DNA of 64,000 bases, taken from assembly GCF_029309905.1 (NCBI RefSeq), contig NZ_JARBJP010000001.1, positions 434,001-498,000 on the forward strand, written 5' to 3'. The notes beneath the pieces are model-generated. The model made no database searches, had not been told where the DNA came from, and saw only the letters and a list, made by a program, of their open reading frames with translations. Shown piece by piece: positions 25,657 through 31,594 of the stretch. This DNA is from Brytella acorum. Lineage in GTDB: Bacteria; Pseudomonadota; Alphaproteobacteria; Acetobacterales; Acetobacteraceae. The position numbers and the translations under genes were made by a program. Within the stretch, counting starts at the first letter, position 1, and every line of letters starts with the position of its first letter.

Positions 25657-25839
25657 GTGACGCAAAATCCTGTGCTGACGATGTTTCTGGGCACATAGCC
25701 TCTCCGCCATCGGACGGAAAGGGCGCTCTGCCTGCAAGGCTCCCGCTTGACGACCGCTCTTCTCTTGGAAACGTTAGGGCGCGATCCGCTTTCGGTGCGC
25801 CATGATAAGGTCAGCATCCAGCGCCATTCAGGACAAGAC

Positions 25840-28800
25840 ATGAGAGATATTTCCCGACCGATTCGACAGGCCATTCTGATGACGGGTCTCTCGTTGATAG
25901 GAGCCGCCAGCATGCCCGTGGCTCAGGTTCGGGCACAGACGGCGCTTCGCGAAATGGACGGGCTGCACACGTTCATGCGTTATCCGAACCTGCACGGCGA
26001 CACGGTGGTTTTCGTCGCGCATGGCAACCTCTGGGAGGTGTCGCGCAAAGGCGGCGCGGCGCGTCGTCTGACGGCCGATCCGGGAGACGATTTTCTGCCG
26101 CGATATTCGCCGGACGGACAGTGGATCGCGTTCACCGCAAGCTATCAGGGCAATCAGGACGTCTACGTCATGCCGTCCGGCGGCGGTCCGGCCCGACGAC
26201 TGACCTTCCATTCGGATATTGCGGCGAAGGCGCCCGATCGCTGGGCGCCGGACAACATGGTCATGACATGGACGCCGGATTCGCGCTCGATCGTATTTTC
26301 CTCACGCGCCCTGGCCTGGAATTCGTGGATCAACCGTCCGTTCACCGTCCCTTTGACCGGAGGCCTGCCCACACCGCTGCCGCTGGATCGCAGTGGTTTC
26401 ATGACCTACGGGCCGGATGGGCATACGGTCGCCCTGACCCGCATCCTGCGGGATTTCCGGACCTGGAAGCGTTATGACGGCGGCCTGGCCCAGAATGTGT
26501 TCACCTATGACCTGAACAGCCACAGGATGGCGCAGGTCACGGACTGGTCCGGCACGGCGACACAGCCCATGTGGTTCGGGCATAAAATCTATTTTCTGGC
26601 GGATCATGATTCGAACCGCCGCGCCAACATATGGGTTCTCGACCTGGAAACGCACCAGACGCGGCAACTCACGCATTTCACGGATTTCGATGTCGATTTT
26701 CCCTCGCTGGGTGACAGCGGCCTGACATTCCAGCAGGGCGGCGCTTTGTGGGTGATGGATCTGCCTTCGGAAGAGCTTCATCGTCTTGACGTTACGGTGC
26801 CTGACGACGGCATGCGGACCATGTCGCGTCCCGTCGCCGCAGCGGATGCCATCCGCGACAGCGATTATGCCCATGAACCCAATTTTGCCGTTGCGCCGAA
26901 TGGACGGCGCGCCGCTCTCGTGGCGCGCGGCGATCTGTTCTCGCTTCCGGCCGAACATGGGGCCGTGCGCAACCTGACCCATAGCAGTGATGCGGATGAC
27001 GAGCATCCGGTCTTCTCGCCGGATGGCAGCCAGCTGGCCTACACGTCGGACGAAAATGGCGAGCAGCAGATATGGCTGCGCGCCGTCGATGGCGGCCCGG
27101 CGCGTCAGTTGACGCATTTCCGCGACGGATACCGTTATGCCCCGATCTTCTCGGCGGACGGCAAGCAACTGGCCTTTTCAGACAACAACAACCGGCTGTG
27201 GGTCATGACGATCGGGTCCGATCCGGTCCCGGTCGCCCAGGACATTCAGGACGAGATTCACGATCAGGCTTTCTCTCCGGATGGACATTATCTCGCTTTC
27301 AGCATGAAGCGTGACAATCACCAGCCTGGCCTTTTCCTGTATGATATCGAAACGCGCCAGCTCATGCCGCTGGGTGGCGCGGAGGCCGACACGAAGCCGC
27401 AATTTTCCAGGGATGGCCGGTATCTTTTCTTCACGTCCCAGCGTCTCGAACACCCCGTCTTCGACGAGCACGAGTTCAACGCCTATTCCATGCAGAGCAC
27501 GGGTATTTATGTCGCGGCTCTGGCGGCTTCGACACCGGCCATGTTCGGAATACGGTCCGATGAGTCAGGCCCGTCCGAGGGCGGGAAGAATGCGGGGGAC
27601 GGCGCGGATCAGCACGCTGGCGCCGATGCGAAGCACACCGATCCTTCCGCGGGGGTGGACGTTTACGGGATTCTTTCGCGTGCGGAGCCGGTGCCGGATA
27701 TCCGGCCCGGCGTGACGAAGATCGCCATGCGCGGAGACAGGCTCTTTTACGAAACGGAACCCAAGGAATCCATTGACGGAGCGACGCCGGATGGCGGCGA
27801 ACGCTCGCTTTTCAGCTATGATGTCGCCGCTCGGAAAAGCCTGTTGATCCAGCAGAAATACGACGCGCTGACGCTGTCTTATGATGGCGCGTTCATGCTG
27901 TGGCGGAATGGTCATGACTGGTTCATCGCCGAGGCCAGGCCGAAATCCGAACCTCACAAGCTCAAGGTCGATGCGATGACGGCCTTCGTGACGCCGCCCC
28001 GGGAGTGGGCCGCCATGTTCAATGAGGCGTGGCGCCTGGAGAGGGATTTTTTCTACAATCCGATGATGAATGGCGTGGACTGGAACCAGATCCATGCAAG
28101 CTACGAGAAGCTTGTCCCGCTGCTCGGGTCGTCGGCCGATTTCGGCTATCTTCTGGGGCAGTTGCAGGGCGAACTTGCCAATTCCCATACCTATGCGCAG
28201 AGCGTGGGCGAGCCGCCCGGACGGCGCTTCCCGACGGCCCTGATCGGAGCGGATTTCGCGCTCGATGCGGCGTCGGGGCGTTATCGCCTCGCGCATGTGC
28301 TGCGCGGGGATAATGCGCGCCCCGCTTATCGCGCCCCGCTCGCGCAGCCCGGCATGAACGTCCGTGATGGCGATTACCTGCTTGCTGTCGATGGCGAGGA
28401 TCTGCGCGCGCCGACCGATCCCTACAGCCTGTTCGTCGGCAGGAACGGCCCGCTGACCCTGACCATCGCCGCGTCGATCGAAGGGAAGAGGCGTGATGTG
28501 ACGGTCGAGCCCGTGGAGAGCGAGCTGTCGCTGCGCGAAGCGGAGTGGATCCGGCATAACCGCGAAACGGTCGATCGTCTGTCGCACGGACAGATCGCCT
28601 ATATCTATCTGTCCGACATGTCCGGGCTGGGGATGCAGCAGTTCATCCGTCAGTTCTATACGCAGCTCGACAGGAAGGCGCTCATGATCGACGATCGCTG
28701 GAACGGCGGCGGCTTTATCGACGAGATCCTGCTTGAGCGTCTGCGACGTGTTCTGGACGGCATGGACGTGACGCGGCAGGGCGTGGGGCGTTCGATCCCC

Positions 28801-29223
28801 CAGCAGTTGATCGTCGGCCCGAAGGTCACGCTCATCAACCACTATTCCGCCTCGAACGGCGATATGTTCCCGTTCTATTTCCGGGATTATAAACTCGGAA
28901 AGCTGATCGGGACGCGGACATGGGGCGGCGTGCGCGGCATCCGCGGGATGTGGCCACTGCTCGACGGCAGCACGATTTCCATTCCCGAGACCGCGCTTTA
29001 TGATCGAAAATCACAATGGGTGATCGAGAATCACGGGGTTGATCCGGATATCGACATCGAGAACGAACCCGCCGATCTTCTGGCTGGCCATGATGCACAG
29101 CTCGAAAAGGGTGTGTCGGTTCTCATGGACGAACTCAAGGCGAATCCACCGGTCATCCCGATGCCTCCTGCCTGGCTGCCGGCCTATCCACCGTCCGCGA
29201 CTCCCGCAACTCACCACGACTAA
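25840..29223 (+). CDS. Periplasmic tricorn-like protease (S41 family)
   Basis: Large protease of 1127 residues. A signal peptide ends near VRAQ, unlike the cytosolic archaeal tricorn. Two beta-propellers built from SPDG and GGPARRLT repeats cover about residues 35-640, followed by a core region, a PDZ domain (about 830-880, PGMNVRDGDYLLAVDGED) and the catalytic domain with NHYSASNGD (nucleophile probably Ser1005) and WNGGGFIDE. An Asp/Gly/His-rich insert lies near residues 590-620. ATG 25840 has GGACA upstream; the 31 residues before it lack a ribosome site. It probably degrades oligopeptides in the periplasm. It is followed after 18 bases by two lipoprotein hydrolase-fold genes, so an operon is likely. 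Confidence 0.92.
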   Translation: MRDISRPIRQAILMTGLSLIGAASMPVAQVRAQTALREMDGLHTFMRYPNLHGDTVVFVAHGNLWEVSRKGGAARRLTADPGDDFLPRYSPDGQWIAFTASYQGNQDVYVMPSGGGPARRLTFHSDIAAKAPDRWAPDNMVMTWTPDSRSIVFSSRALAWNSWINRPFTVPLTGGLPTPLPLDRSGFMTYGPDGHTVALTRILRDFRTWKRYDGGLAQNVFTYDLNSHRMAQVTDWSGTATQPMWFGHKIYFLADHDSNRRANIWVLDLETHQTRQLTHFTDFDVDFPSLGDSGLTFQQGGALWVMDLPSEELHRLDVTVPDDGMRTMSRPVAAADAIRDSDYAHEPNFAVAPNGRRAALVARGDLFSLPAEHGAVRNLTHSSDADDEHPVFSPDGSQLAYTSDENGEQQIWLRAVDGGPARQLTHFRDGYRYAPIFSADGKQLAFSDNNNRLWVMTIGSDPVPVAQDIQDEIHDQAFSPDGHYLAFSMKRDNHQPGLFLYDIETRQLMPLGGAEADTKPQFSRDGRYLFFTSQRLEHPVFDEHEFNAYSMQSTGIYVAALAASTPAMFGIRSDESGPSEGGKNAGDGADQHAGADAKHTDPSAGVDVYGILSRAEPVPDIRPGVTKIAMRGDRLFYETEPKESIDGATPDGGERSLFSYDVAARKSLLIQQKYDALTLSYDGAFMLWRNGHDWFIAEARPKSEPHKLKVDAMTAFVTPPREWAAMFNEAWRLERDFFYNPMMNGVDWNQIHASYEKLVPLLGSSADFGYLLGQLQGELANSHTYAQSVGEPPGRRFPTALIGADFALDAASGRYRLAHVLRGDNARPAYRAPLAQPGMNVRDGDYLLAVDGEDLRAPTDPYSLFVGRNGPLTLTIAASIEGKRRDVTVEPVESELSLREAEWIRHNRETVDRLSHGQIAYIYLSDMSGLGMQQFIRQFYTQLDRKALMIDDRWNGGGFIDEILLERLRRVLDGMDVTRQGVGRSIPQQLIVGPKVTLINHYSASNGDMFPFYFRDYKLGKLIGTRTWGGVRGIRGMWPLLDGSTISIPETALYDRKSQWVIENHGVDPDIDIENEPADLLAGHDAQLEKGVSVLMDELKANPPVIPMPPAWLPAYPPSATPATHHD

Positions 29224-29241: not shown

Positions 29242-30399
29242 ATGCGTTTTCATCCCGCCCTGTTCGGCCTCATTTTTCTGGCGATGACCGCCTGTCACCG
29301 CATGGGCGATGACGAGGATTATTCCGCGCGGGCGTACGCGTCGGCGGGAGAGGTGATTTCACTCAAGCATCAGGCGAGCGAGGCGCCCGGCACGACCTAT
29401 CGCATGGCCTATCGCTCCACGGATGCGCACCTGCCGCATCAGCTCGTGGCGGTGTCGGCGACCGTGATCGTGCCTTACGGCAGGCCGCCTTCTGGCGGAT
29501 GGCCGGTCGTGGCGTGGGCTCATGGGACGAGTGGCCTTGCCATTACCTGCGCGCCTTCGATCATGGGGATCGGCGGGCCACAGGCCAGCTTCTACGGGGC
29601 ATGGATCCGACGCGGGTTTGCGGTCGTCGGAACGGATTTTCCGGGGTTGGGCGAGGCCGGGACGCCGCTTTATCTGAATTCGCGTTCGGAAGGCATGGCC
29701 GTTCTGGATTCGGTGCGCGCCGCAACCCGGGCCGTGAGAGGGCTGAGCGACCGCGTGGTGCTGCTCGGCCACGATCAGGGCGCGCATGCCGTGATCGCGG
29801 CGGCGGGGATGGCCGCGGGTTACACGCCCGAACTTCAGATCCTGGGGACGATCGCGGTCGGGGCGCCCGATCCGGCCAACGATCCGCAGTTCTTTTCAGG
29901 TGTGCATGGCGAGAGCCGCTTTTCGCCCAATGTGTTCTACGCGCTGATGATGGGTGCTTCGCTCGGTCGGGCGGATTCGCAGTTTATTCCCGAACGCGCG
30001 TTCACGGACCGGGCCATGGAACTTTATGGCAAGGCATCCCGCGAGTGTCGCAGCGACGTCTTCGCCGCCATGGAGCATCGCCGTCTGACGCCGGCCAATG
30101 CTTTTGCTCCGGGGGTGGCGACGGCTCTCAAACCGGCTCTTGACTGGTCGCGCTACCCCACTTTGGCCCTCAAGCAACCGCTCATGCTGGCCATCGGCGG
30201 CGGGGATACGCAGATCCCTCTCGGCGTTCAGGAACGTCTCGGACAGAATCTATGCGCGGCAGGCACGCCTGTCAGCGTGTACCATTATGCCGGGGCGGAA
30301 CATACGCCTGTGCTGCGTCGCGCGCAGATGGACGCTCTGGACTTCGCGGACGGCCTCCTGTCCGGCCGGGCGCCCGCATCGACGTGTCATCCGGGCTGA
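29242..30399 (+). CDS. Lipase-fold lipoprotein with Asp at the nucleophile position
   Basis: 385 residues. Lipoprotein signal peptide (FGLIFLAMTAC). The body resembles the secretory lipase family (PF03583): WAHGTSGLAITCAPS, RRGFAVVGTDFPGLG, and YTPELQILGTIAVGAPDP. In relatives the nucleophile elbow is GHSQGGHA or GYSQGG; here it is GHDQGAHA, with Asp178 instead of Ser. The putative charge-relay Asp322 (GGGDTQIP) and His354 (AEHTPV) remain. Asp nucleophiles occur in haloalkane dehalogenases and epoxide hydrolases (GHDWG), so altered chemistry is possible; loss of activity is the alternative. ATG 29242, with TTG 29236 as an option. It is followed by a paralogue after four bases. Confidence 0.83.
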   Translation: MRFHPALFGLIFLAMTACHRMGDDEDYSARAYASAGEVISLKHQASEAPGTTYRMAYRSTDAHLPHQLVAVSATVIVPYGRPPSGGWPVVAWAHGTSGLAITCAPSIMGIGGPQASFYGAWIRRGFAVVGTDFPGLGEAGTPLYLNSRSEGMAVLDSVRAATRAVRGLSDRVVLLGHDQGAHAVIAAAGMAAGYTPELQILGTIAVGAPDPANDPQFFSGVHGESRFSPNVFYALMMGASLGRADSQFIPERAFTDRAMELYGKASRECRSDVFAAMEHRRLTPANAFAPGVATALKPALDWSRYPTLALKQPLMLAIGGGDTQIPLGVQERLGQNLCAAGTPVSVYHYAGAEHTPVLRRAQMDALDFADGLLSGRAPASTCHPG

Positions 30400-30403
30400 T
30401 CTC

Positions 30404-31594
30404 GTGGCAGGTCTTGGCGCATTTCCGAGAAGGATGTCCTGGGCAATCGCTCTGGCCGTGGGCCTGACGGGGACGCTGGGCGGCTGTGAGGCGCCACAGG
30501 TTGACGCGCCTCTTTCCTTTCGTCCCCAGCCGGGAGCGCTGATTTCGGTCATTCCGAAAGAGAACGACTTTCCCGGTCGCTCGGCGGTCGTGACCTATTA
30601 CACGACGGATGTTCTCGTCCCGGCCCATATGCTGACGGTCACTGCGATGGTGTTCACGCCCGCAGGACCGCCGCCGGTCGGGGGCTGGCCCGTCATGGCG
30701 TGGGGCGACGGAATGCCCGGACTGGCCGACGATTGCGCCCCCACAGCGACAGACGTATCGCGCGGTCCTTACGGCCCCTATCTTCTGTCCTGGCTCAAAC
30801 GCGGTTTCGCTGTGATCATGACGGACCAGCCAAGGCGCGGGCGGCCATTTTATCTGAACGCGCGGGAAGAAGGCATGAGCATGCTGGACGCCGTGCGCGC
30901 CGTCACGACGAATGACGGGCGTTTCAGTCGTCGCACCGTGCTGGCAGGGCATGGACCCGGCGCGCACGCCGCTCTTTCGGCGGCCGGAATGGTGGCGGAG
31001 TACGCGCCGGAGTTGCGGATCGGTGCGGTCGTGGTCAGCGGGGCGCCGTACTGGGACTCCCGCAGTGTGGCGATGCTGGCGGGGCAGGTCCGTGGGGAGA
31101 GCGGCCATCAACGTGATCCAGAACTGGGAGAACTGATGCTGATGGGCGCATCTCTCGCCGCGGCGATGCCGACAGGCGACGCCGCGCGGGCCTTTTCGCC
31201 GCAGGCCCGGACTGTCTATCAGCAGGCGGGAACACTCTGTCCGGTGCCCTTCATGGCACTTCTCGCGACTTCGGGCCTCACGCCCGCGACAGCGCTCACC
31301 GCTTCGGCGTTCGAGGATCTGAAACCGGCATTCGACTGGGCGGCCTACCCGACATTGCGTATCCAGGCCCCCGTTTTCTTCGCTATTGGCGGAAAGGACG
31401 TTCAGGTTCCCGGCGCCGCGCAGGATCGCCTCGCTGCCGATCTATGTCGCGCTGGCACCCGCATGCGGGTGCGCCATGACCCGGATCAGAACCACATGAG
31501 CGCGCTATTCGTGTCGAGCGACGAGGGCATGACCTTCGCGCAGAATGCCCTGCGCGGCGTCGAGCCGGGATCGGACTGCGCGGCGTTTCGATAA
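30404..31594 (+). CDS. Second lipase-fold lipoprotein, Gly at the nucleophile position
   Basis: About 396 residues and clearly a paralogue of the preceding gene: WPVMAWGDGMPGLADDCAPT, LKRGFAVIMTDQP, YAPELRIGAVVVSGAP and the closing C-terminal cysteine pattern align along the whole length. A twin-arginine-like PRR then hydrophobic run leads to lipobox L-G-G-C. The nucleophile elbow is GHGPGAHA (Gly184 replacing Ser), while Asp332 (GGKDVQVP) and His364 (QNHMSA) are kept. Probable pseudoenzyme or binding protein. The start is uncertain: GTG 30404 is used; ATG 30434 is the alternative. The four-base spacing from the first paralogue implies co-transcription. Confidence 0.8.
   Translation: MAGLGAFPRRMSWAIALAVGLTGTLGGCEAPQVDAPLSFRPQPGALISVIPKENDFPGRSAVVTYYTTDVLVPAHMLTVTAMVFTPAGPPPVGGWPVMAWGDGMPGLADDCAPTATDVSRGPYGPYLLSWLKRGFAVIMTDQPRRGRPFYLNAREEGMSMLDAVRAVTTNDGRFSRRTVLAGHGPGAHAALSAAGMVAEYAPELRIGAVVVSGAPYWDSRSVAMLAGQVRGESGHQRDPELGELMLMGASLAAAMPTGDAARAFSPQARTVYQQAGTLCPVPFMALLATSGLTPATALTASAFEDLKPAFDWAAYPTLRIQAPVFFAIGGKDVQVPGAAQDRLAADLCRAGTRMRVRHDPDQNHMSALFVSSDEGMTFAQNALRGVEPGSDCAAFR

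Follow-up and report, generated by a model that had tools for sequence, protein, structure and literature searches.

A secretory-lipase-fold lipoprotein of acetic acid bacteria with a conserved aspartate in place of the nucleophilic serine, and its degenerate tandem copy

In the 64,000-nucleotide stretch of the Brytella acorum genome analysed here (the window), a lipoprotein gene of the secretory-lipase family, P1, encodes aspartate where its relatives carry the nucleophilic serine. As judged from its orthologues, this replacement is conserved in at least 14 species and marks a working protein that is no ordinary serine lipase. The reading that we prefer, at slightly better than an even chance, is that P1 is a repurposed esterase that has no need of a nucleophilic serine and serves in ligand binding or in non-covalent chemistry, and that its tandem neighbor P2 is a pseudoenzyme. 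The wider interest of the locus is that related genera hold it in three nucleophile states, Ser, Asp, and Ala, all under purifying selection. It may thus offer a natural series leading from a serine esterase to an Asp-nucleophile enzyme or a binding protein, a transition so far mainly studied by engineering.

P1 is an intact open reading frame on the forward strand (29242..30399, ATG start at 29242) with the elbow motif GHDQGAHA, in which Asp178 (codon GAT, 29773..29775, forward strand) takes the place of the nucleophile. P2, its tandem paralogue on the same strand, occupies 30434..31594 or extends upstream to an alternative GTG start at 30404, and so begins 4–34 bp after P1 depending on the start codon. 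Its elbow reads GHGPGAHA, the glycine at the nucleophile position being residue 174 from the ATG at 30434 and 184 from the GTG. In a profile search the two proteins score 57.7 (P1) and 47.2 bits (P2) against the LIP family PF03583, whose curated cut-off is 23; their other matches, to the general and non-specific Abhydrolase_6 and Abhydrolase_1 profiles, fall below cut-off. Inspected by eye, both have the signal peptide with lipobox cysteine of bacterial lipoproteins, with lipobox LGGC in P2 and MTAC in P1, where Met at −3 is unusual, the orthologues having LAAC, LTAC, or LSAC.

The AlphaFold models (pLDDT 92.4 for P1 and 91.0 for P2) place both proteins with the solved members of PF03583, Candida antarctica lipase A (CALA; 2VEO, 3GUU) and Xanthomonas oryzae LipA (3H2G), which they resemble in fold and lid (Z about 32–37) despite only 17–23% sequence identity. 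The match runs the full length of P1, lid included (Z 34.9–36.7), and the whole length of P2 (Z 32–35.6), over spans of 326–346 residues, while the next fold group scores Z 22–23. CAPS and elbow motifs and the relay Asp and His are likewise common to the solved enzymes and our two proteins. In a profile alignment Asp178, Asp322, and His354 of P1 fall on Ser184, Asp334, and His366, the catalytic triad of CALA (PMC2841678). The difference lies in the nucleophile, Ser in the solved members vs Asp in P1 and Gly in P2, and in the oxyanion-loop motif, which P2 lacks. P1 and P2 are therefore relatives of CALA by descent but not serine lipases, the Ser of GxSxG being absent. The earlier note on this DNA had described tandem lipase-fold lipoproteins with Asp and Gly at the elbow, and the intact reading frames, the family scores, and the alignment to CALA bear this out. 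Its statement that both retain the relay residues agrees with the alignment of P1 to Asp334 and His366 and with the presence of these residues in P2. A search of the P1 elbow for another serine found none.

How widely the aspartate is held was gauged in 397 Acetobacteraceae genomes and in an order-level search of 395. Asp stands at the nucleophile column in 14/14 P1 orthologues from six genus groups, the window's genome included, among them Asaia lannensis, A. prunellae, A. siamensis, A. bogorensis, and Acidomonas methanolica. These orthologues are 55–66% identical to P1, and in the order-level search a wide gap separates them (650 bits or more) from the next group (522 bits or less). Their elbow is GHDQG, or GHDEG in Acidomonas methanolica. 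Setting the Gluconobacter proteins described below aside, Ser occupies the column in all 70 other aligned family members, and it does so in 68 of the 80 relatives from GTDB species genomes, the remaining 12 being Asp and Ala orthologues; with Ser so nearly universal, the change in P1 and P2 is not a matter of chance. Outside position 178 the Asp proteins keep every catalytic residue, namely His94 in the WAHGT loop, Asp322, His354, and Gln179, which is Glu in Acidomonas.

A lost nucleophile might also reflect an error in the sequence or the neutral decay of redundant copies, and the degenerate P2, found here only and on a long branch, lends this account some color. For P1, against this, 14 independent genomes have the same residue, held under purifying selection. 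dN/dS is 0.02–0.05 within Asaia and about 0.02–0.08 when genome G008 is compared as well, and the Asp codon is GAT in some orthologues and GAC in others; low dN/dS together with the use of both synonymous codons, which holds for the Ala group as well, argues that selection on the protein maintains the residue. The core of the enzyme, scored over 35 columns that were chosen from Ser proteins lying outside the subfamily, is as conserved as in the Ser-type members, with 7 of 502 changes in the Asp group falling in core columns vs 13 of 794 in the subfamily's Ser members. Of the seven Asaia and G008 genomes scanned, six have the Asp protein as their sole PF03583 member, and hence there it is no relaxed spare copy. 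Error or recent decay of P1 was rejected on these grounds; P2 counts against decay too, with its intact 386-codon frame, GC3 of 0.739 vs 0.738 in P1, pLDDT of 91, and Z of 35 to CALA, and across both genes we regard the error-or-decay account as very improbable. The concern raised in the earlier note, that the residue might reflect error or decay, is thereby answered for P1, and its suggestion of an altered function is likely correct, an Asp-for-Ser change being conserved within a retained lipase fold.

Gluconobacter supplies a second nucleophile-less group under purifying selection at the same locus. Its P1 orthologues (L123–L129 and L212–L222) carry Ala at the nucleophile (GHAQG), encoded by GCA or GCC, with dN/dS of 0.04–0.06. 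That the Ser, Asp, and Ala forms occupy one locus is shown by shared flanking genes. An inosine-uridine nucleoside hydrolase (PF01156; 24429..25373, reverse strand), which served as an orthology anchor, and a divergently oriented DUF3297 protein (PF11730; 25405..25737, reverse strand) adjoin the lipase-like gene in nearly all examined genera, whichever of the three residues it encodes. On a tree of 89 proteins three nucleophile changes are needed, Ser to Asp, Ser to Ala, and Ser to Gly, once each; the nucleophile was thus replaced at least three times, most simply with a single origin for Asp and one each for Ala and Gly. When the nucleophile column is masked, the best tree still unites the Asp proteins in one clade, and since its support is only moderate (68/35), one or two Asp origins are possible. 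Every path from a Ser to an Asp codon that proceeds one base at a time crosses Ala, Gly, Asn, or Tyr, and the gene therefore probably passed through, and survived, a nucleophile-free stage. That stage would be bypassed if both bases had changed at once, from TC to GA.

These two observations, the persistence of Ala orthologues under selection and a Ser-to-Asp route through nucleophile-free residues, are why we think that the P1 group probably needs no nucleophile at all. Its members, probable envelope lipoproteins of acetic acid bacteria, derive from secretory-lipase/CALA-family serine esterases; Ser gave way to Asp in the lineage of Asaia, Acidomonas, and the window's organism, and to Ala in many Gluconobacter, with the lid, fold, relay His–Asp, and oxyanion motif retained through the loss. 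In place of lipase hydrolysis, P1 would use the former acyl pocket to bind a hydrophobic or ester-like ligand of the envelope or, alternatively, act on such a ligand without a covalent acyl-enzyme. Serine independence, ligand binding, and an envelope location are the most likely attributes of P1, and its annotation as a secretory lipase, like that of other P1-type proteins, is likely wrong as to mechanism. Counting against serine independence, an enzyme that uses Asp as its nucleophile would show the same invariant His354 and Asp322 and the same strict Asp178. Moreover, the Ala group is shallow, so that its record of 0 core changes in 79 has limited power.

An active Asp-nucleophile hydrolase is indeed the reading that the earlier note had raised for P1. 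Asp178 would attack the substrate, and the His354–Asp322 pair would activate water to cleave the resulting alkyl-Asp ester. Haloalkane dehalogenases and epoxide hydrolases share with P1 the α/β-hydrolase fold, an elbow Asp, and a His–acid pair; their elbow reads GHDWG, with Trp after the nucleophile, and their cap carries a Tyr pair. P1 sits instead in the CALA family, and all Asp-group proteins have GHDQG or GHDEG, the Gln or Glu after Asp being the same as in Ser members. Among the group-specific invariants (Gly112, Ala153, Arg226, Arg270, Glu278, Glu331, Glu353, Pro356, and Ala361) there is neither a Trp after the nucleophile nor a cap Tyr pair, and no group-specific Trp or Tyr has been gained. 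The charged, group-unique Arg226, Arg270, Glu278, Glu331, and Glu353 do hint at an altered pocket, and the strict Asp in 14/14 orthologues beside conserved His354, Asp322, His94, and core is what such an enzyme would show. Glu353 is weakened as a residue of the Asp mechanism, since a Glu before the relay His (AEH) is also found in CALA and is no mark of new chemistry, and the Ala orthologues, with Ala at the same locus, have the same core. By engineering, an esterase has been given weak epoxide-hydrolase activity (PMC3962183), a precedent showing that such a step can be taken. Taken together, dehalogenase or epoxide-hydrolase chemistry in P1 is possible yet bears no positive mark, and we think it unlikely, while still deserving of serious consideration. 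Were it correct, the Asp group would represent a natural switch from a CALA-family Ser esterase to an Asp-nucleophile hydrolase, independent of the dehalogenase/epoxide-hydrolase lineage and with the Ser and Ala orthologues marking the route, a scenario to which we give the same low but appreciable credence.

A third possibility is that P1 and the Ala proteins both remain catalysts of a nucleophile-free kind, with the His–Asp dyad as general base, the oxyanion loop as stabilizer, and the nucleophile position merely shaping the pocket. The dyad and the oxyanion motif are intact in the Asp and Ala groups alike, and a Ser-to-Ala variant of lipase B retains catalysis of Michael-type addition (reviewed in PMC3962183). 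The neighboring genes, for their part, differ among genera and give no link to a substrate or pathway, and we hold this possibility to be quite improbable.

The preferred reading, a repurposed esterase without need of its serine, has partial parallels among known proteins. In the non-catalytic, cholinesterase-like neuroligins, gliotactins, and neurotactins, the α/β-hydrolase fold has outlived the catalytic triad and taken on a surface role (PMC8387733); these belong to another subfamily and to eukaryotic adhesion, whereas P1 and P2 are bacterial lipoproteins that keep the relay residues. A nucleophile swap within the α/β-hydrolase family is shared with PfEH1 and PfEH2 of P. falciparum, where it runs in the reverse direction, with Ser in an epoxide hydrolase, and where activity was shown (PMC5082902). 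Open-access literature searched for the GHDQG motif and for pseudoenzymes among bacterial lipases returned nothing relevant.

P2 has departed much further from its relatives and has lost the greater part of its active site. Although it retains the relay Asp and His, it is altered at 10 of 36 core positions, the oxyanion motif (WAHGT to WGDGM) among them; in P1 numbering the changes include His94Asp, Thr96Met, Tyr133Gln, Gly135Arg, Ser178Gly, and Gln179Pro, together with a three-residue loop deletion. Since P2 has thus lost the oxyanion-loop motif and the GLGxxG loop as well as the serine, P1 and P2 are different cases. Its branch, at 1.3–1.56, is 4–5 times longer than that of P1 (0.27–0.31). 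The orthologue of P2 is the second tandem gene of genome G025, where GHSQGAHA is kept, and the degenerate form was seen in the window's genome only; P2 is a deeply altered further copy of a Ser-type tandem gene. It is probably a non-catalytic pseudoenzyme; judged from this single genome, the intact reading frame, GC3, and predicted fold favor a protein that folds but does not catalyze over a gene that has died. The earlier note had suggested P2 as a possible binding partner and had proposed a check on whether the two proteins change together. Probable loss of catalysis in P2 fits the suggestion, while a co-changing pair is not supported: besides the window's genome only G025 has the tandem, and the second copy there is of the normal GHSQG type.

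Upstream, a tricorn-like S41 protease gene (25747..29223, forward strand; profile matches to PD40, Tricorn_C1, PDZ_Tricorn, and Peptidase_S41) ends 18 bp before P1, and from this spacing the two are likely co-transcribed; promoter and terminator scans gave signals near or below chance. In G025, Acidomonas, and G022, as in the window, the protease gene adjoins P1 or its orthologue. In Asaia, G008, and Gluconobacter it is absent from the locus, a tricorn gene lying elsewhere in the genome, and in G048 it is found 1.6 kb from a Ser-type gene. The neighborhood is thus independent of the Asp change, as a Ser-type gene near tricorn in G048 and an Asp-type gene without it in Asaia indicate, and the single exported unit proposed in the earlier note does not hold as a rule. 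Besides the copy next to P1, the window's own genome encodes a second full-length tricorn-like gene (G000:C2:71127-71384), and two such genes are also present in G025, Acidomonas, and G022. The same genome further holds, elsewhere, a third PF03583 lipoprotein-like paralogue with an intact GQSQG elbow (L002:1033-2352; C2:277737-278909).
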